DNA from: Acidobacteriota bacterium
Lineage (GTDB): Bacteria; Acidobacteriota; Blastocatellia; RBC074
Direction of reading: 5' to 3'
Assembly (NCBI GenBank): GCA_016196035.1
Contig: JACPYM010000063.1
Location: 1-38,439 of the forward strand
Length of the DNA stretch: 38,439 nt
In this document: positions 5,337-35,038 of the stretch, in pieces
Layout: each line of letters opens with the position of its first letter
How positions within the stretch are numbered: the stretch's first letter is position 1
Position numbers and translations under genes: made by a program
Notes under the pieces: model-generated
What the model was told of the DNA's origin: nothing
The model's input: the letters and a program-made list of their open reading frames with translations, nothing else
Databases searched by the model: none

Positions 5337-6617
5337 TCACAGCGACTCGGCGTAAGCCCGCAACGCCGCCGTTTGCACCTCGCGCAAGGCAACCAACTGC
5401 GCTTCCGCCGCCGCCCGACAATCTTCGTATTCAGGCGCGGCATTCACCACACGGCCCGCAGCGTTTTTGGCCAGCTTGATGCGGATCGAACCGTAGGGCG
5501 TCGCCACGGTCACGAATTCGCGCTGCAAAATCTCGCGCTGCTCCGTGCGGTAACGCAGGCCCAGCGTCGTCGTTTCGCGGAAGAGCAATTCGCACATGCG
5601 CGCGCGATCAGCCGGCTGACAGAGCAGCGTCAACAGCACGCCGGGCCGGTTCTTTTTCATCTGCACGGGCGTGTAAAACAAATCGAGCGCGCCCGCTGCC
5701 AGCGCCTTTTCCATGACGTGTCCGAGCACTTGCGGACTGAGATCGTCGAGGTTGGCCTCGATGACGGTGATGGTGTTGGGCGTGTCATCAAGGTGGGGTG
5801 CATCGCTCAAGAGTTCACCGATGATCGCGCGCAGCACGTTGGGGAATTTCGGATATTCGCGCGTGCCTGCGCCGTAACCCGTGCGTTCGATCTTCAACAA
5901 CGGCAGCGCGCCGAAGCTTGCGGCCAACTCAGCCACCAGCGCCGCGCCGGTCGGCGTGACGAGTTCGCCCTGAATGTCTTTGGCATAAATCGGCACGCCT
6001 TGCAGCAATTCGGTTGCCGCCGGGCCGGGCACGGGATAGGTGCCGTGCGCGCATTTGAAGGTGCCGGAACCGACGTGCAACGGCGAGGCGATGATGCGCT
6101 CGATTTGCAGCGCCTCCAAGCCAACGCACACGCCGACGATATCCACGATGGAATCAAGCGCGCCGACTTCGTGAAAGTGGACGGCTTCGAGCGGGATGTT
6201 ATGAATTTTGGACTCGGCTGCGCCTAAACGCTGAAAGATTTGCGTCGCGCGGGCCTTGACGGTTTCGCTCAAGCCGGACGCCGCGATCAGGCGTTTGATG
6301 TCCGATAGCGCGCGGTGGTGCGAATGTTCGCCCTCGCCGTGCGCGTGGGCGTGCGTATGTTCATGCGGATGCGAATGCGTGTGGGTGTGCGGGACGCTCT
6401 CGGCTTCAGCATGCGTTTCCAGCAACTGCACGTCGAATTTGGCGGCGGCGATGCCGCTGCGATCTACGCGCGTCAGGCTCAATTCGTAACCGGACACGCC
6501 GAGCTTCGCCAATTCGTGTTTCAGCAGTTCAAAGTCCAGCCCGCAATCCAGCAAGGCCCCAAGCAACATATCGCCGCTGATGCCTGCAAAACAGTCTAGG
6601 TAAAGAGTTCGTTTCAT
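5337..6617 (-). CDS. larC: LarC, nickel-insertion protein for the nickel-pincer nucleotide cofactor
   Basis: 426 residues. The N-terminus YLDCFAGISGDMLLGALLD is the family signature (LarC, formerly DUF111). LarC inserts nickel into the pyridinium bis-thiocarboxylate mononucleotide to form the cofactor of lactate racemase and related LarA enzymes. Residues about 76-105 form a strongly His-rich insertion (HTHTHSHPHEHTH and more), which fits nickel binding or storage. In Lactiplantibacillus plantarum larC is read as two frames joined by frameshifting; here a single uninterrupted frame covers both halves. No larA, larB or larE is present in the window, so the rest of the pathway must lie elsewhere. 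The ATG start directly precedes the signature. Confidence 0.93.
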   Translation of the reverse strand: MKRTLYLDCFAGISGDMLLGALLDCGLDFELLKHELAKLGVSGYELSLTRVDRSGIAAAKFDVQLLETHAEAESVPHTHTHSHPHEHTHAHAHGEGEHSHHRALSDIKRLIAASGLSETVKARATQIFQRLGAAESKIHNIPLEAVHFHEVGALDSIVDIVGVCVGLEALQIERIIASPLHVGSGTFKCAHGTYPVPGPAATELLQGVPIYAKDIQGELVTPTGAALVAELAASFGALPLLKIERTGYGAGTREYPKFPNVLRAIIGELLSDAPHLDDTPNTITVIEANLDDLSPQVLGHVMEKALAAGALDLFYTPVQMKKNRPGVLLTLLCQPADRARMCELLFRETTTLGLRYRTEQREILQREFVTVATPYGSIRIKLAKNAAGRVVNAAPEYEDCRAAAEAQLVALREVQTAALRAYAESL

Positions 6618-25856: not shown

Positions 25857-25928
25857 AATCTGTTTGTTAGGATGCCTGCGAAATTAAAGGACAGTTCGAT
25901 CCCACAGGAATCAAGCAGGAAACAAATT

Positions 25929-26432
25929 TTGAAGATTACGGCACAAGAAGAATACGGCATGCGCTGCCTCTTGCAGTTGGCGAAGCAGGAGCAGGAAACG
26001 GCGGGCGAAGGCACGCTGTTGGTGCGCGACATCGCCGAACGCGAGGGGCTGTCGGTCGCGTATGTTGAAAAAATTCTCTGGATGCTGAGCCGCAGCGGCC
26101 TGGTCGAAAGCGTGCGCGGGCCGAAGGGCGGCTACAAGCTGTCGCGCTCTGCCGCCGCGATTTCATTGGGCGAAGTGATGCGCGTGCTGGGCGGCATTCA
26201 GTCAGAAGAGGAACTGTGCGGCCAGTTCACGGGGCAGCACGACACCTGTGTGCACCACGGCGATTGCGGGTTAAAGCCCGTCTGGACGAGCATCACCGAT
26301 TTCGTCAACAGCGTTTTTGACAAGGTTCCGTTGACGACCTTGCTCAACGGCGGCATGGACATGCGGTTCGTCCAGATCAACACGCCGACACGTAACGCCG
26401 CCGCCTTACCCGCGTCAGTGCGCGTGAATTGA
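25929..26432 (+). CDS. Rrf2-family Fe-S-sensing transcriptional regulator of the suf operon
   Basis: 167 residues from TTG at 25929, chosen because aggaa lies upstream, the first residues become the canonical MKITAQEEYGMRCLLQLA, and the probable promoter/operator lies at 25831-25873. An ATG at 25872 would add 19 residues. The winged helix covers about residues 1-80 (RDIAEREGLSVAYVEKIL and RGPKGGYKLSR). Cys97, Cys106 and Cys112 (C-x8-C-x5-C) are the expected ligands of a [2Fe-2S] cluster, as in IscR/SufR-like Rrf2 proteins. Placement just before sufB and the two matching dyads suggest it controls itself and the suf operon in response to Fe-S supply. Not every Rrf2 protein is a repressor, so the sign of regulation is open. 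Confidence 0.9.
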   Translation: MKITAQEEYGMRCLLQLAKQEQETAGEGTLLVRDIAEREGLSVAYVEKILWMLSRSGLVESVRGPKGGYKLSRSAAAISLGEVMRVLGGIQSEEELCGQFTGQHDTCVHHGDCGLKPVWTSITDFVNSVFDKVPLTTLLNGGMDMRFVQINTPTRNAAALPASVRVN

Positions 26433-26512: not shown

Positions 26513-27952
26513 ATGAGCACAGCAGCAATCGAGGCACTTGCCAATCGCGAATACAAATACGGCTTTGTCACCGACATCGAGGCAGAAACGATTCCGCGCG
26601 GTTTGAACGAAGACATCGTGCGCACGATTTCGGCCAAGAAAAACGAGCCGGCGTGGATGCTGGAATGGCGGCTGAAGGCCTATCGCCATTGGCTGACGAT
26701 GGAGGAGCCGGAGTGGGCCAACGTCCATTATCCCAAGATTGATTACCAGGACATCATTTACTACTCCGCGCCCAAGCCGAAAAAGAAGCTGGCGAGCATG
26801 GACGAAGTGGACCCGGAGTTAGTGGATACGTTTGCGAAGCTGGGCATTCCGTTGCACGAGCAAAAAATGCTGGCGAACGTGGCGGTGGACGCGATCTTTG
26901 ACAGCGTCTCGGTGGCGACGACGTTTCGGGAGAAGCTGGCGAAGGAGGGAGTGATCTTCTGCTCGTTCTCAGAGGCGCTGCATCAATACCCAGAGATCAT
27001 CAAGAAATACATTGGCTCGGTCGTGCCATACACCGACAACTATTTTGCGGCGTTGAATTCGGCGGTCTTTTCGGACGGCTCGTTCTGCTTCATCCCGAAG
27101 GGCGTGAAATGTCCGATGGAGTTGTCGTCGTATTTCCGCATCAACAACTCTGAGTCGGGCCAGTTTGAGCGCACGCTGATTGTGGCGGAAGAAGGCTCGC
27201 ACGTTTCATATCTCGAAGGCTGTACCGCGCCGAAATTCGACAAGAACCAGTTGCACGCCGCCGTCGTCGAATTGGTCGCGCTCGACAACGCCGAGATCAA
27301 GTATTCGACGGTACAAAACTGGTACGCGGGCGATGAGAACGGCAAGGGCGGGATTTATAATTTCGTGACCAAGCGCGGCGCGTGCCGGGGCGTCAATTCC
27401 AAGATTTCGTGGACGCAGGTGGAAACGGGTTCGGCGATTACGTGGAAGTATCCAAGCTGCATTTTGCAGGGCGACAATTCGATCGGCGAGTTCTATTCGG
27501 TTGCGCTGACCAACCACATGCAACAGGCCGACACGGGCACGAAGATGATCCACATCGGCAAAAACACGCGCAGCCGTATTGTCTCGAAAGGCATTTCGGC
27601 CGGGCGCTCGAACAACAGCTATCGCGGCCAAGTCAAGATTTTGCCGAAAGCCGAGAACGCGCGGAACTATTCGCAATGCGACAGTCTGCTGATTGGCCGT
27701 GAGTGTGGCGCGAACACGTTTCCGTACATTGAAGTCGGTAACAATACGGCCAAGGTGGAGCACGAAGCGTCTACGTCAAAGATCAGCGAAGAGCAGCTTT
27801 TCTATTTCAACCAGCGCGGCATTGCGACGGAGGACGCCGTCTCGATGATCATCAACGGCTTTTGCAAAGAAGTCTTCCGCGAGTTGCCGATGGAGTTTGC
27901 GGTGGAGGCGACGCGGTTGCTGGGAATGAAACTGGAAGGCAGTGTCGGTTAA
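26513..27952 (+). CDS. sufB: SufB, Fe-S cluster assembly scaffold subunit
   Basis: 479 residues, normal length. SufB forms the cytoplasmic SufBC2D complex on which Fe-S clusters are built. Family patterns are clear: [76 protein letters not shown], and the C-terminal [20 protein letters not shown]. The Cys in LEGCTAP and other conserved Cys are retained. A gaggg ribosome site precedes the ATG. It is first of the suf structural genes, preceded by the candidate operator. Confidence 0.97.
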
Positions 27953-27971: not shown

Positions 27972-28409
27972 ATGACAGACAAACTTATCGCAATCGAAGC
28001 TTCATTGCCGCCCGTCCCCGACGCGGCGGGTAACTATGTTCACGCCGTGCGCACCGGCAATCTGGTTTATCTGGCCGGCAAAGGCGTGCTGGTGCAAGGC
28101 AAGGTCGGCCACGATTTCACCAAGGAGCAGGCCTATCAATTCGCCCGCGAAACCGGCCTGATCCTGCTGGCGGTGTTGAAGCAGGAACTGGGCACGCTGC
28201 GCAAGGTCAAGCGTGTGGTCAAGGTGCTGGGCATGGTCAACGCGACACCCGATTTCGGTGAGCATCCGTTTGTCATCAACGGCTGTTCCGACTTGTTCGT
28301 CGAAGTCTTCGGCGAAGCCGGACGGCACGCGCGCGCGGCGGTGGGGATGGGTTCGCTGCCACACCAGATACCCGTCGAGATCGAAGCGATTGTCGAAGTC
28401 GAAGACTAA
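27972..28409 (+). CDS. RidA-family (YjgF/YER057c) protein inside the suf operon
   Basis: 145 residues from the ATG at 27972 (an in-frame GTG 30 bases upstream lies inside sufB and is less likely). The chorismate-mutase-like Rid fold is seen: LVYLAGKGVL, LGTLRKVKRVVKVLGMVN, then ARAAVGMGSLPHQIPVEIEAI. Arg121 corresponds to the catalytic Arg of RidA, with the conserved Glu in the last strand. RidA deaminates reactive enamine/imine products released by PLP enzymes. The spacing (20 bp after sufB, 30 bp before sufC) makes it part of the operon. Protection of, or clean-up after, the PLP enzyme SufS is a reasonable inference, not shown. The longer GKG/NATPDFGEHP form indicates a Rid subfamily other than archetypal RidA. 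Confidence 0.9.
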   Translation: MTDKLIAIEASLPPVPDAAGNYVHAVRTGNLVYLAGKGVLVQGKVGHDFTKEQAYQFARETGLILLAVLKQELGTLRKVKRVVKVLGMVNATPDFGEHPFVINGCSDLFVEVFGEAGRHARAAVGMGSLPHQIPVEIEAIVEVED

Positions 28410-28439: not shown

Positions 28440-29195
28440 GTGCTAGAGATTCGCAACTTACACGCCACGATTGATGGCAAAGAGATTTTGCGCGGTTTGA
28501 ACCTGACGGTGAAAGCCGGTGAAATCCACGCCATCATGGGCCCGAACGGTTCGGGCAAGAGCACGCTCGCCAAAGTGCTGGCCGGGCATCCGTCTTACGA
28601 AGTCACGCAAGGTGAGGTGTTGTTTGAAGGCCGGAACCTGTTTGAACTCGCCGCCGATGAGCGCGCCCGCGCGGGCGTCTTCCTCGCCTTTCAATACCCG
28701 ATTGAAATTCCGGGTGTGAGCAACGCCAATTTCTTGCGGCTGGCGTACAACGAAAAAGCCAAGCACGAAGGCCGCGAGGAACTTGATCCGCTGGAATTCG
28801 ATGACCTGATTCAAGAGAAGATCAAGATCGTCGAGATGGACAAGAGCTTCATCAACCGTTCGGTCAACGAAGGCTTTTCGGGCGGCGAGAAAAAGCGCAA
28901 CGAAATTCTGCAAATGGCCGTGCTCGAACCGAAGCTGGCCGTGCTGGACGAAACCGATTCGGGCCTGGACATTGACGCGCTGCGCATCGTCGCGGGCGGC
29001 GTCAACAGGCTAGCGCACAAAGACAACGCCATCATTCTGGTGACGCACTATCAGCGCCTGTTGGATTACATCGAACCGCACTTCGTTCACGTGCTTTATA
29101 AAGGCCAGATCGTCAAATCGGGCGGCAAAGAGTTGGCGAAGGAGTTGGAGAAGAAAGGCTACGATTGGATCAAGGGCGCGAGCGCGGCGGCTTAA
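28440..29195 (+). CDS. sufC: SufC, ABC-type ATPase of Fe-S assembly
   Basis: 251 residues from GTG at 28440; ggag lies upstream and the product begins with the canonical [17 protein letters not shown]. Walker A is GPNGSGKST (residues 34-42), the signature is [14 protein letters not shown], and Walker B is [12 protein letters not shown]; the final His switch is in [13 protein letters not shown]. SufC is the soluble ATPase that binds SufB and SufD and drives the conformational change needed for cluster building. It is the third structural gene; the first small protease gene follows after 15 bp. Confidence 0.97.
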
Positions 29196-29210: not shown

Positions 29211-29645
29211 ATGGGGGAACCTAGAGTCAAAGTGCTGTTGACGAATGCGACCGATTTGGAATTGGCGCAACTCGGTCATATTTCAGCGGAACAAGTGCGT
29301 CGTTATGAGGCGGATGCTTTAGCCGATTCAGGTTCAGTTTGCACTATCTTGCCGCCTGAGGTCGTGGCACGGCTGGGCATACGCATCCGCGGACAGCGCA
29401 CGGCTGAGTACGCCGATGGACGCCAGGAATCGGTAGGGTTAACGGCTCCGTTGTTGATAGACATTGCCGGACGCGAGACAGCAGACGAAGCAATGGTGCT
29501 GGGCGAAGAAGTGCTGATTGGACAAACGGTGCTGGAAAAACTCGACATGTTGGTGGATTGCGCCAATCGCCGCGTTATCCGCAACCCGGCGCACCCCGAC
29601 CAAGCCGTCAACAAAGTCAAAACGCTGGGAGTTTCCCGGATTTGA
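29211..29645 (+). CDS. Retropepsin-like (clan AA) aspartic protease homologue, suf operon copy 1
   Basis: 144 residues; ribosome site aaggag before the ATG. The catalytic-type motif is DSG (Asp39-Ser40-Gly41) in ADSGSVCTILPPEV, followed by the flap-like region (YADGRQESVG) and the second conserved element VLIGQTVLEKLDMLVD. This pattern matches small single-domain clan AA proteases (TIGR03698-like), which act as homodimers because each chain gives one Asp. No transmembrane segment. It lies between sufC (15 bp) and sufD (5 bp), so it is surely cotranscribed. Role unknown; candidates are turnover or maturation of Suf proteins, or mere hitch-hiking. Proteolytic activity is inferred. Confidence 0.85.
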   Translation: MGEPRVKVLLTNATDLELAQLGHISAEQVRRYEADALADSGSVCTILPPEVVARLGIRIRGQRTAEYADGRQESVGLTAPLLIDIAGRETADEAMVLGEEVLIGQTVLEKLDMLVDCANRRVIRNPAHPDQAVNKVKTLGVSRI

Positions 29646-29650
29646 GCTAT

Positions 29651-31009
29651 ATGCCGCAAACTGTGACTGCAAAAGAAAACTATTTCTCCGCGCACAAACT
29701 TCTCGCTAAGGCGCGCGCCGAAATGCCTGAAAGCCAAGACCCGGTTTGGCTCGCCAACCTACGCGACAAAGCCGGTGAACGTTTCGAGGCGCTCGACTTC
29801 CCTACCCTGCGGTACGAAGAGTGGAAGTACACCAGCGTCGCGCCCATCCTGAAAACGCCTTTTCGGCAACTGCTTGATCCGGATTTGCAGGGCGTCACGG
29901 CAGAGCGCATCGCGCCGTTCACCTATGCTGAAACGCGCCGCAGCCAGTTGGTTTTCGTCAATGGCTTGTATGCGCCGCAGCTTTCCGACCTGAGCGCGTT
30001 GCCCGGTGGCATCACGGTCTGCAATCTGGCGCAAGTGCCCGCCGAGGCCGCCAAAACCGTGCACACGCATCTGGCGACGCAGGCCAATCATCACGACGAA
30101 GTCTTCACCGCGCTCAACACCGCCAGCCTGGGCGATGGCGCGCTTGTTTATCTCCCGAATGGCCAGGCCGTTGAGACGCCGATTCACCTGCTGTTTTTGA
30201 CGACCGCGAAGGAGGCGACCGTCGCACACCCGCGCGTGTTGATCGTGGCGGGCGCGGGCACGATTGCGACCGTGGTCGAAAGCTACGCTGCGTTACCCAC
30301 TGCGGGGAAAGACGGCGTTTACTTTACCAATGCGGTGGCCGAGGTCATCGCGCAAAACGGCGCGGTCGTCACGCATTACCGCTTGCAGCAGGAAAGCGAA
30401 CAGGCCTTTCACATCGCCACGACGCAGGTTTATCAAGAGCGCGGCAGCAATTACACGTCCTACGCCATCTCGCTAGGCGGGGCCATCGCGCGTCACGATT
30501 TGAATGTCGTACTCGGCGATGAAGGCACCGAGACCACGATTGACGGCCTTTACGTCGTCACCGGCAAACAGCATTGCGACAACCACACGACGATTGATCA
30601 CGCACATCCGCACGGCGCCAGCCATCAGGTATACAAAGGCATCTTGAACGATCAGGGCCGTGCCGTATTCAACGGCAAAGTTTTCGTGCGCAAAGGCGCG
30701 CTGCTGACCGATGCGCAGCAGTTGAACAAGAACCTGCTGCTCTCGAGTCAGGCGCACGTTGACACCAAGCCGCAATTGGAGATTTTTGCCGATGACGTGA
30801 AATGCTCGCACGGCGCGACCGTCGGTCAGTTGGAGGACGAAGAGCTGTTTTACCTGGCGGCGCGTGGCCTCTCGCCCGAACGCGCCCGCGCCTTGCTGAC
30901 GTATGGATTCGCCGAGCACATCATCAGCAAGATCAAGCTGCCGTCGGTGCATACGGCGTTGGATCGCGCGGTGCTCGCAAAGCTGCATCAGAGTTTGGAG
31001 GTAAATTGA
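29651..31009 (+). CDS. sufD: SufD, Fe-S cluster assembly subunit
   Basis: 452 residues from ATG at 29651, five bases after the previous stop; the open frame extends 31 codons further upstream, but that part overlaps the protease gene and is not conserved in type. Family patterns include LDFPTLRYEEWKYTSVAP at the N-terminus, the central beta-helix (FTNAVAEVIAQNGAVVTHYRLQ, TTIDGLYVVTGKQHCDNHTTI) and the C-terminal DDVKCSHGATVGQLEDEELFYL with the conserved His. SufD partners SufB in the SufBC2D scaffold and is needed for iron entry. Start by re-initiation is likely since no strong ribosome site is seen. Confidence 0.96.
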   Translation: MPQTVTAKENYFSAHKLLAKARAEMPESQDPVWLANLRDKAGERFEALDFPTLRYEEWKYTSVAPILKTPFRQLLDPDLQGVTAERIAPFTYAETRRSQLVFVNGLYAPQLSDLSALPGGITVCNLAQVPAEAAKTVHTHLATQANHHDEVFTALNTASLGDGALVYLPNGQAVETPIHLLFLTTAKEATVAHPRVLIVAGAGTIATVVESYAALPTAGKDGVYFTNAVAEVIAQNGAVVTHYRLQQESEQAFHIATTQVYQERGSNYTSYAISLGGAIARHDLNVVLGDEGTETTIDGLYVVTGKQHCDNHTTIDHAHPHGASHQVYKGILNDQGRAVFNGKVFVRKGALLTDAQQLNKNLLLSSQAHVDTKPQLEIFADDVKCSHGATVGQLEDEELFYLAARGLSPERARALLTYGFAEHIISKIKLPSVHTALDRAVLAKLHQSLEVN

Positions 31010-31010
31010 C

Positions 31011-31385
31011 GTGGTACTAACACAAAGTCTTAATTTTCGCGGCTCAAAAGGAAGGGCCGATTTACTGGCCTTGTTTGATAGCGGTTCAACCTATTCGTGC
31101 CTGAATCCAGAAGTGGCTGCCAAACTTGGCAACTTGGAAGCCTTGCCTGATCCCCTCGAAGTCAAGACTGCCGACAAAGGCCATTTCATTCGCATTGAGG
31201 AAAGCGTTCGTCTGGATTTCTATCTGAACAATTTGCGCCTCACAGATGAATTCATGGTTGTGCCCGGCTTGGCAGAGGAAGCGATCATCGGCGCAACGAC
31301 GATGCAAAAATGGCGGATCAAACTCGACTTCGAGCACGATCAGATCGTTACTGACCCGCGGGCGAACCGCATGATCTTGATGTAA
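31011..31385 (+). CDS. Retropepsin-like aspartic protease homologue, suf operon copy 2
   Basis: 124 residues from GTG at 31011, one base after the sufD stop; ggagg lies about nine bases upstream, inside the sufD end. The DSG triad is Asp23-Ser24-Gly25 in [17 protein letters not shown], a flap-like segment follows ([12 protein letters not shown]), and the second conserved element is [19 protein letters not shown]. It is a single-domain retropepsin-like fold, only remotely similar to the copy at 29211-29645, so the two are not a recent tandem duplication. It lies between sufD and sufS (13 bp). Function unknown; see copy 1. Confidence 0.82.
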
Positions 31386-31398
31386 CCGGCAATCACCT

Positions 31399-32655
31399 AT
31401 GCAAGCAGCTACGAACACCAAAAAAGCTTTTGACATTGACCGCATCCGCCAGGACTTCCCCATCCTGCAACAAACCGTGAACGGCAAGCCGCTCGTTTAC
31501 CTCGACAACGCCGCAACTTCGCAAAAGCCGCAAGTCGTGATTGATGCGCTCACGCGTTATTACACCGAGCAAAATTCCAACATACACCGCGGCGTGCATT
31601 ACCTGAGCCAACTGGCAACGCGCGAATACGAAGGCGCGCGCGTCAAAATCCAAAAATTCATCAATGCCGCCGAGGAACACGAGATCATCTTCACGCGTGG
31701 CACCACCGACAGCCTCAACCTAGTTGCGCTCAGCTTCGGGCGCAAGTTCGTCAAAGCGGGCGATGAGATCATCATCTCGGCGCTCGAACATCACTCCAAC
31801 ATCGTGCCTTGGCAGATGCTGTGCGAAGCGACGGGCGCAAAACTGCGCGTGATTCCGATCAATGACGCGGGCGAATTGCTGCTGGATGAATACGCGGCGC
31901 TGCTCAATGCGCGCACGAAACTGGTTGCGGTCGCGCACATGTCCAACGCGCTCGGCACGATCAATCCGGTCAAACGCATCATCGAACTGGCCCACGCGCA
32001 AGACATCCCCGTGCTGCTGGATGGCGCGCAAGCCGCGCCGCACTTAAAAGTGGACGTGCGCGCATTGGATTGCGATTTCTATGCGTTCAGCGGTCACAAG
32101 CTCTGTGGCCCGACGGGCATCGGCGTGCTTTATGGCAAGAGCGAGTTGCTCAACACGCTGCCGCCCGTGCAGGGCGGCGGCGACATGATTGCGTCGGTGA
32201 CCTTTGAAAAAACCACCTACAACACGCTGCCGCATCGCCTGGAAGCCGGCACGCCGCACATCGAAGGCGGCATCGGCCTGGGCGTCGCACTGGATTACCT
32301 GACCGTCATCGGACTGGATGCAATTGCGGCGTATGAGCAAGAGCTGCTCGATTACGCCACCGAAACCATCGGCGCAATCAAGGGCGTGCGTATCATCGGC
32401 ACCGCGCCCGAAAAGGCGAGTGTGCTGTCTTTTGTGATCGGAGGTGTGCTCGACGGCATTCATCCGCACGACATCGGCACGATTCTAGATCAGGAAGGCA
32501 TCGCCATCCGCGCCGGGCATCATTGCGCGCAACCGGTGATGCAACGCTTCGGCGTGCCCGCGACGGCGCGCGCCTCGTTCGCCTTCTACAACACGAAAGC
32601 CGAGATTGACGCGCTGGCCGAAGGCATTCAAAAGGCCATCGAGGTCTTTGCCTAA
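31399..32655 (+). CDS. sufS: SufS, cysteine desulfurase
   Basis: 418 residues, normal length. It removes sulfur from L-cysteine through PLP and passes it to SufU/SufB. The PLP lysine is Lys234 in [13 protein letters not shown], and the persulfide cysteine is Cys376 in [12 protein letters not shown], both in SufS-type (group II) context. N-terminal [13 protein letters not shown] and [13 protein letters not shown] are characteristic. It is followed by a hairpin-bearing spacer of 76 bp and sufU, the usual sulfur-acceptor partner in operons lacking SufE. Confidence 0.97.
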
Positions 32656-32731: not shown

Positions 32732-33184
32732 ATGTCTGACTTAACCGAGCTTTACCAACAGGTCATCCTTGACCACAACAAGAAACCGCGCAACTTCAAG
32801 GTGCTGGAAACGGCCACCCGCACGCAGGAAGGCTACAACCCGCTGTGCGGCGATCAACTGAAACTGTACCTTGAACTGGATGGCGAGACGGTCAAAGACA
32901 TCGCCTTTCAAGGCCAGGGTTGCGCCATTTCCAAAGCCTCGGCCTCGATGATGACGACCGCCATCAAGGGTAAAACCAAGGCCGAAGCCGAAGTGATGTT
33001 TGACGAATTCCACCGTATGGTGAAAGGCGAGCTTGACCCTGAAGCGGGCGAGAACCACCTGGGCCGCCTGAAAATCTTCGCCGGGGTGCGCGAATTCCCG
33101 GCCCGCGTCAAATGCGCCAGCTTATCCTGGCATACCTTACGCGCGGCGTTGGAAGGCAGTCACGATGCCGTTTCTACCGAGTAA
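32732..33184 (+). CDS. sufU: SufU, zinc-dependent sulfur acceptor
   Basis: 150 residues. SufU receives persulfide sulfur from SufS. The ligand set typical of SufU is complete: Cys39 and Asp41 (NPLCGDQ), Cys64 (GQGCAIS) and Cys128 (VKCASLSW), and the roughly 20-residue insertion between the second and third Cys (VKGELDPEAGENHLGRL) separates it from IscU. The N-terminus LTELYQQVILDHNKKPRNF is standard. Last gene of the suf operon. Confidence 0.96.
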   Translation: MSDLTELYQQVILDHNKKPRNFKVLETATRTQEGYNPLCGDQLKLYLELDGETVKDIAFQGQGCAISKASASMMTTAIKGKTKAEAEVMFDEFHRMVKGELDPEAGENHLGRLKIFAGVREFPARVKCASLSWHTLRAALEGSHDAVSTE

Positions 33185-34789: not shown

Positions 34790-35038
34790 ATGGCAAGCAC
34801 ACAAGTCAGAATCAGCAGTGCGACACATCAAACGCTCCGTCACCTGTCGGCTGAAATTGGAGAGTCCATGCAAACCATCATCGAAGAAGCGATAGAGCAA
34901 TATCGGCGGCGCAGATTTCTGGAAGGACTAAATCAAGACTTCAAGGCTTTGAAAGAGGACGCGTCGGCTTGGCAAGAAGAACTGGCAGAACGGGCATTGT
35001 GGGACAATACTTTGCTTGATGGAGTTGAAAATAAATGA
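34790..35038 (+). CDS. RHH-type antitoxin (cassette 2)
   Basis: 82 residues. The N-terminal ribbon-helix-helix (TQVRISSATHQTLRHLSAEI, then GESMQTIIEEAIEQYRRRRF) should dimerise and bind DNA; the C-terminal acidic tail (LNQDFKALKEDASAWQEELAER) would wrap and inhibit the toxin. ATG follows ggagg. Its stop overlaps the toxin start (ATGA). Integron cassettes often carry such modules, which are thought to stabilise arrays. Confidence 0.88.
   Translation: MASTQVRISSATHQTLRHLSAEIGESMQTIIEEAIEQYRRRRFLEGLNQDFKALKEDASAWQEELAERALWDNTLLDGVENK

Follow-up and report, generated by a model that had tools for sequence, protein, structure and literature searches.

Two different retropepsin-like protease genes flank sufD in the suf operon of an Acidobacteriota bacterium

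Substrates are known for only a few of the retropepsin-like proteases of bacteria. Retroviral-like aspartic protease 1 (ASPRV1) is a mammalian skin protease; chains under this name gave the closest solved sequence (E 2.1e-6) to P2, one of the two genes P1 and P2 described here, which differs in being bacterial and in lying within suf. The NCBIfam family TIGR03698, "clan AA aspartic protease", resembles P1 and P2 in its single domain and D-T/S-G motif and was the sole NCBIfam match for both, although P1 (39.4 bits) and P2 (20.9 bits) scored below its curated cut-off of 57.35. A bacterial precedent is RimB of Pseudomonas fluorescens, a retropepsin-like protease which, as described in PMC11957791, needs a conserved Asp for cleavage and is encoded in one operon with its partner enzyme RimK. 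RimB thus shares with P1 and P2 the class of protease and the setting in an operon, whereas it acts with RimK on polyglutamate (PMC11957791), and no RimK-like gene was seen in the suf operon of the window. RloA (PMC12239564) is cited beside this precedent. APRc/ApRick of Rickettsia (PMC4140852) has the retropepsin fold in common with P1 (structure 5c9f, Foldseek E 1.2e-4), but its sequence matched the P1 profile at noise level (E 0.69), and, judging the sequences by eye, no membrane anchor was visible in P1 or P2. Among the papers listed in literature searches on bacterial retropepsins and SUF assembly, none was seen to describe a retropepsin-like gene in suf.

The window, that is, the whole 38,439-nucleotide stretch analysed (contig JACPYM010000063.1, assembly GCA_016196035.1), carries an operon in the order Rrf2-sufB-RidA-sufC-P1-sufD-P2-sufS-sufU (Table 1), in which P1 and P2 flank sufD. 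The sequence-only reading had described two different, small, single-domain retropepsin-like genes on either side of sufD, spaced 1-15 bp from suf genes. Positions, DSG motifs, profile matches and the P1 model agree with the former statement, and the measured gaps with the latter, being 15 bp for sufC-P1, 5 bp for P1-sufD (from the likely sufD start), 1 bp for sufD-P2 and 13 bp for P2-sufS. Downstream of suf, positions 34790-35038 of the window hold what may be an antitoxin gene, with a PSK_trans_fac score of 23.4 bits that falls short of the cut-off.

Table 1. Features of the suf operon, in positions of the window
Feature	Position	Strand	Basis
Rrf2-type regulator, operon head	25875..26432	+	named by eye; start uncertain; no NCBIfam match at E 1e-30
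sufB	26513..27952	+	NCBIfam
RidA-family gene	27972..28409	+	named by eye; no NCBIfam match at E 1e-30
sufC	28440..29195	+	NCBIfam
P1, retropepsin-like aspartic protease gene, 144 aa, ATG start	29211..29645	+	motifs, weak profile matches, predicted fold
sufD	29651..31009	+	NCBIfam; start chosen by eye
GGAGGT box, 3' end of sufD	30997..31002	+	relatives' junctions compared
P2, retropepsin-like gene different from P1, 124 aa, GTG start	31011..31385	+	motifs, weak profile matches, sequence match, sister genome
sufS-family cysteine desulfurase	31399..32655	+	NCBIfam
sufU	32732..33184	+	NCBIfam

P1 carries a DSG motif at residues 39-41, with Asp39 as the putative catalytic residue, and a hydrophobic-hydrophobic-Gly motif (LIG, 102-104), and P2 carries the corresponding pair at 23-25 (DSG, putative catalytic Asp23) and 92-94 (IIG). 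Against Pfam PF13975 and PF13650, with gathering scores of 28.2 and 24.3, P1 reached 25.0 and 22.4 bits and P2 20.8 and 22.6 bits, likewise below threshold; we judge the profile matches of both proteins to be real but weak. P1 was confidently modelled as a retropepsin fold (pLDDT 92.9), which superposed on XMRV protease with a VIA Z of 12.2 and an rmsd of 2.3 over 104 residues, and its best Foldseek match was HIV-1 protease (3mws, E 1.7e-5). The active-site Asp and Gly were invariant across 44 aligned rows. The predicted structure of P2 was poor (pLDDT 45.9). That the sister genome has P2 in the same position argues against a chance ORF.

P1 and P2 are 30% identical across 102 aligned residues, which rules out a recent duplication, as had been proposed from their dissimilarity. 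GC3 was 0.579 in P1 and 0.576 in P2 vs 0.715-0.756 in the seven other genes of the operon, and both genes thus look horizontally acquired. Their low identity, common GC3 shift and different relatives also support the earlier suggestion that the two acquisitions were independent. The same genome contained 12 PF13650 matches over 8 other contigs and 7 P1-like places, P1 itself counted, while the search with P2 returned P2 itself and one weak match only. As for vehicles, mobile-element boundaries were rejected, with no repeats found around P1, while the single inverted pair seen in the stretch around P2, 12 nt long and imperfect, was judged to be chance; phage or plasmid carriage was rejected as well, with zero phage matches for P1, three distant plasmid matches for P1 (Synechocystis) and zero plasmid matches for P2.

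In the following comparison, G000 denotes the genome of the window and G001 the sister genome of the same genus, the sole congener compared. P1 matches were found in 17 of 58 genomes (own included) at 41 places in total, only three of which, in three of the 17 P1-bearing genomes (G000, G008 and G001), lay in suf. The order in G008 is sufC-P1-79 aa ORF-sufD, and the copy in G001, 46% identical, lies just 3' of sufB and is truncated by the contig end. Among the six family genomes readable at the sufC-sufD junction, P1 occupies the slot in G000 and G008, G001 and G006 have a PhdYefM-YoeB pair there, and G004 and G005 have nothing; at the sufD-sufS junction, also readable in six, P2 is present in G000 and G001, G005, G006 and G008 are empty, and G007 holds a 97 aa ORF unlike P2. 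The suf stretches of three further class members (G012, G019 and G020) matched neither P1 nor P2 at E 1e-3, a threshold at which a more distant protease could escape notice. Across the phylum sample, the P1 profile matched in 38 of 396 genomes and SufB-type matches were found in 284 of 396, and P1 and SufB shared one contig only in G000, among the 16 P1-bearing genomes with a SufB place listed.

Under the earlier reading, the two genes should be neither absent from the suf operons of close relatives nor randomly scattered through genomes. For P1 this expectation largely fails, since 2 of 6 sufC-sufD slots hold the gene and the family is scattered; with three further class members lacking a match, P1 does not appear as a conserved SUF accessory gene. 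For P2 it fails less clearly, in that 4 of 6 sufD-sufS junctions are without the gene, yet P2 is unscattered and both genus members carry it. In G008 (L082, approximately 5600-5990, minus strand), a decayed copy of the sufD start, exact over 12 nt, directly follows P1 and precedes the 79 aa ORF and sufD; it suggests an insertion scar and a stepwise insertion at that point. The PhdYefM-YoeB pair between sufC and sufD maps to L076:1156-1700 in G001 (Pfam) and to approximately 5186-5700 of L080 on the minus strand in G006, where it was identified by translation and by likeness to the pair of G001.

The scan of named genomes returned 250 P1 relatives, and the best 80 of 250, from ten named phyla, were analysed further (Cyanobacteriota 28, Acidobacteriota 20, Planctomycetota 11, Rokuibacteriota 7, Bacillota 4, five others 8, unassigned 2). 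These 80 are the best-scoring loci and not a random sample, the neighbour counts rest on simple ORF calling, and the contexts were grouped by likeness and named via NCBIfam on representatives. Among the best 80 of 250, the P1 relative was flush on both sides (<=30 bp, same strand) in 13 of 20 Acidobacteriota loci vs 2 of 60 elsewhere, the 13 flush loci representing fewer than 13 insertions, since their contexts are partly common by descent. Within the same best 80 of 250, the contexts comprised sdhC-P1-sdhA in five Acidobacteriota loci (L096, L097, L101, L108 and L138), Cof hydrolase-P1 in six loci (with a peptidylprolyl isomerase directly adjoining in three), nuoF-P1 in two (with nuoG next in L149, its score just under cut-off), P1-hypD in two, and hemH, fabF, ileS-purN, hisB and sufB in one each; suf adjoined a P1 relative in one of the 80, the planctomycete locus L132, and no neighbour recurred across contexts. 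Operons in which the family lies flush in Acidobacteriota thus include sdhC-sdhA, nuoF-nuoG, hisC-hisB and Cof hydrolase-PPIase. In the 58-genome survey, hisC, thrS and citrate synthase were further neighbours of P1, and more distant protease subgroups lay between pdhA and pdhB or before citramalate synthase. The latter subgroup was seen in L069 and in L014 of the own genome (NCBIfam) and, by eye, in L072, and it also lies 3' of ilvC in L069 and, by eye, in L072.

The suf-borne P1-type genes thus known belong to three members of one bacterial family and one planctomycete. A tree was built from 95 rows, 90 of them different, on a short alignment of 137 columns. These four copies required four changes in it and were grouped in 0 of 200 bootstrap trees, and we favour separate insertions; one old insertion in suf is possible, because the tree does not reject the copies of G000 and G008 as sisters (AU p 0.27).

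On balance, we lean towards the reading that P1 and P2 are retropepsin-like endopeptidases of the cytoplasm, acquired independently and working as homodimers, whose genes are carried along by suf transcription, P1 as an operon passenger and P2 as a genus-specific gene; of the two, only P2 makes a fair candidate for a role linked to Suf. Each chain would supply one catalytic Asp (Asp39 in P1, Asp23 in P2) and two chains would make up the active site, by analogy with HIV protease and with the proposal for bacterial RimB. P1 in suf would gain read-through expression under the Rrf2-type regulator, and its substrate would probably be set by the P1 family and not by Suf, because the P1 family in Acidobacteriota sits flush inside operons that are unrelated to each other. 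As far as gene contexts can tell, the place of P1 in suf does not by itself indicate a role in Fe-S assembly, since members of its family are found inside many unrelated operons. Flush placement in sdh, nuo, his and suf operons, with no partner gene that stays constant, is an unusual gene life style, and it serves as a warning that, for this family, operon position alone is poor functional evidence.

The last sufD codons contain a GGAGGT box. In G005, G006 and G008 the sufS start comes directly after this box, and in G000 and G001 P2 does; no GGAGGT-type box was seen before sufS in G000. Because P2 would thus have landed on the ribosome-binding box in the sufD tail, it would probably be made together with SufD, and SufS translation would now probably depend on that of P2. 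This coupling is probable in G000, since sufS there is without an evident box and P2 sits on the box of the sufD tail.

P2 was found in two of the 58 genomes, both of the same genus and at the same place (G000 and G001). A phylum sample of 297 genomes gave P2 matches in two, the own genome and G130 (25 bits), with no G001 row among the matches listed. Between G000 and G001, P2 is 83% identical vs 69% for SufD, and dN/dS, obtained with our own script by Nei-Gojobori counting, was 0.035 for P2 (with dS saturated at 2.95), 0.037 for SufB, 0.036 for SufC, 0.060 for RidA, 0.166 for SufD and 0.205 for SufS (part). A constraint equal to that on SufB and SufC would suit a role of P2 in the suf operon, and this counts against the passenger reading. 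The suf-borne P1-type genes count against it too, since 3 of the 41 P1 places, judged by eye, seem more than random scatter would put there.

It is possible, though unlikely in our judgement, that one or both proteases act on Suf, trimming or removing SufD, SufB or SufS, for example when oxidatively damaged, and that their place in suf is retained because it matches dosage. The presence of two clan AA genes within one operon, the same place and low dN/dS of P2 in both genus members, the occurrence of P1-type genes in the suf operons of a planctomycete and of three family members, and the precedent of a bacterial retropepsin working with its operon partner (RimB and RimK; PMC11957791 and PMC12239564) would all agree with such a function. 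However, the P1 family occurs in many unrelated operons, and 4 of 6 sufC-sufD junctions are without P1, as are 4 of 6 sufD-sufS junctions without P2. Furthermore, no insertion or changed end common to the Suf proteins of both P2-bearing genomes alone was seen in the parts compared; these were the whole of SufD and SufS, with G001 contributing only part of its SufS, and the lengths, ends and gap counts of SufB and SufC. The original proposal of a function in Suf processing or turnover is thus not supported for P1, given the spread of its family, while P2, conserved in the genus at one place, stays a fair candidate and, lying beside sufD under strong constraint, offers a clean testable case.

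We regard as improbable the reading of P1 as a small gene, selfish or stabilising, with a life style akin to that of toxin-antitoxin systems, which transfers, multiplies, swaps with toxin-antitoxin pairs and decays. Such a gene would fit the sufC-sufD slot common to P1 and PhdYefM-YoeB, the PhdYefM, BrnT, RelB-like and HicA genes that adjoin P1 in one genome each, the 28 P1-family matches, some tandem and three with an internal stop, in the Ignavibacteria genome G428 (that of L104), and the patchy spread over the phylum sample. However, the lack of a constant partner in the 80 loci and the near absence of phage and plasmid matches speak against it, and some places of the family look kept by descent, such as sdhC-P1-sdhA in its five loci. 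The near-far test was weak, since toxin-antitoxin-type families, by our own classing, numbered 5 among 74 small ORFs near P1 relatives (153 kb) vs at least 2 among 128 far ones (280 kb), among the matches listed (25 of 32 families).

It is quite improbable, in turn, that the P1 family serves in quality control as a protease which is transferable, prefers iron-sulfur, haem, respiratory and pyruvate-citrate operons (suf, sdh, nuo, hyp, hemH, pdh and citrate synthase) and works on the complexes that the surrounding genes encode, with P2 as a Suf-specialised member on which SufS translation would depend. We do not claim a preference of the P1 family for Fe-S operons; the class (sdh, nuo, hypD, suf and hemH) was picked after the data were seen. 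A second look at 26 further loci, mostly from Planctomycetota and Ignavibacteria, was a poor test, as 10 were without a central ORF and a few more were centred on a non-protease ORF; L213 and L181 repeated the earlier nuo and Cof hydrolase places, L222 adjoins a seemingly broken xanthine dehydrogenase FAD subunit, and no Fe-S gene was recognised by eye in the remaining loci. The preference thus stays a lead, because this second look tests it too poorly.

That P1 and P2 are inactive relics, neutral and read through in the operon, is very improbable. Such relics would fit the lack of P1 in suf of most relatives examined and the replacement of DTG/DSG by DRG, DAG or DCG in three relatives (L111, L163 and L058), but both ORFs are intact with DSG and the hydrophobic-hydrophobic-Gly motif kept, and the dN/dS of P2 is low.

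As minor observations on the neighbouring proteins, SufD of the window has two short insertions unique among the eight SufD compared, and its SufS has one insertion unique among the seven SufS that cover that place.
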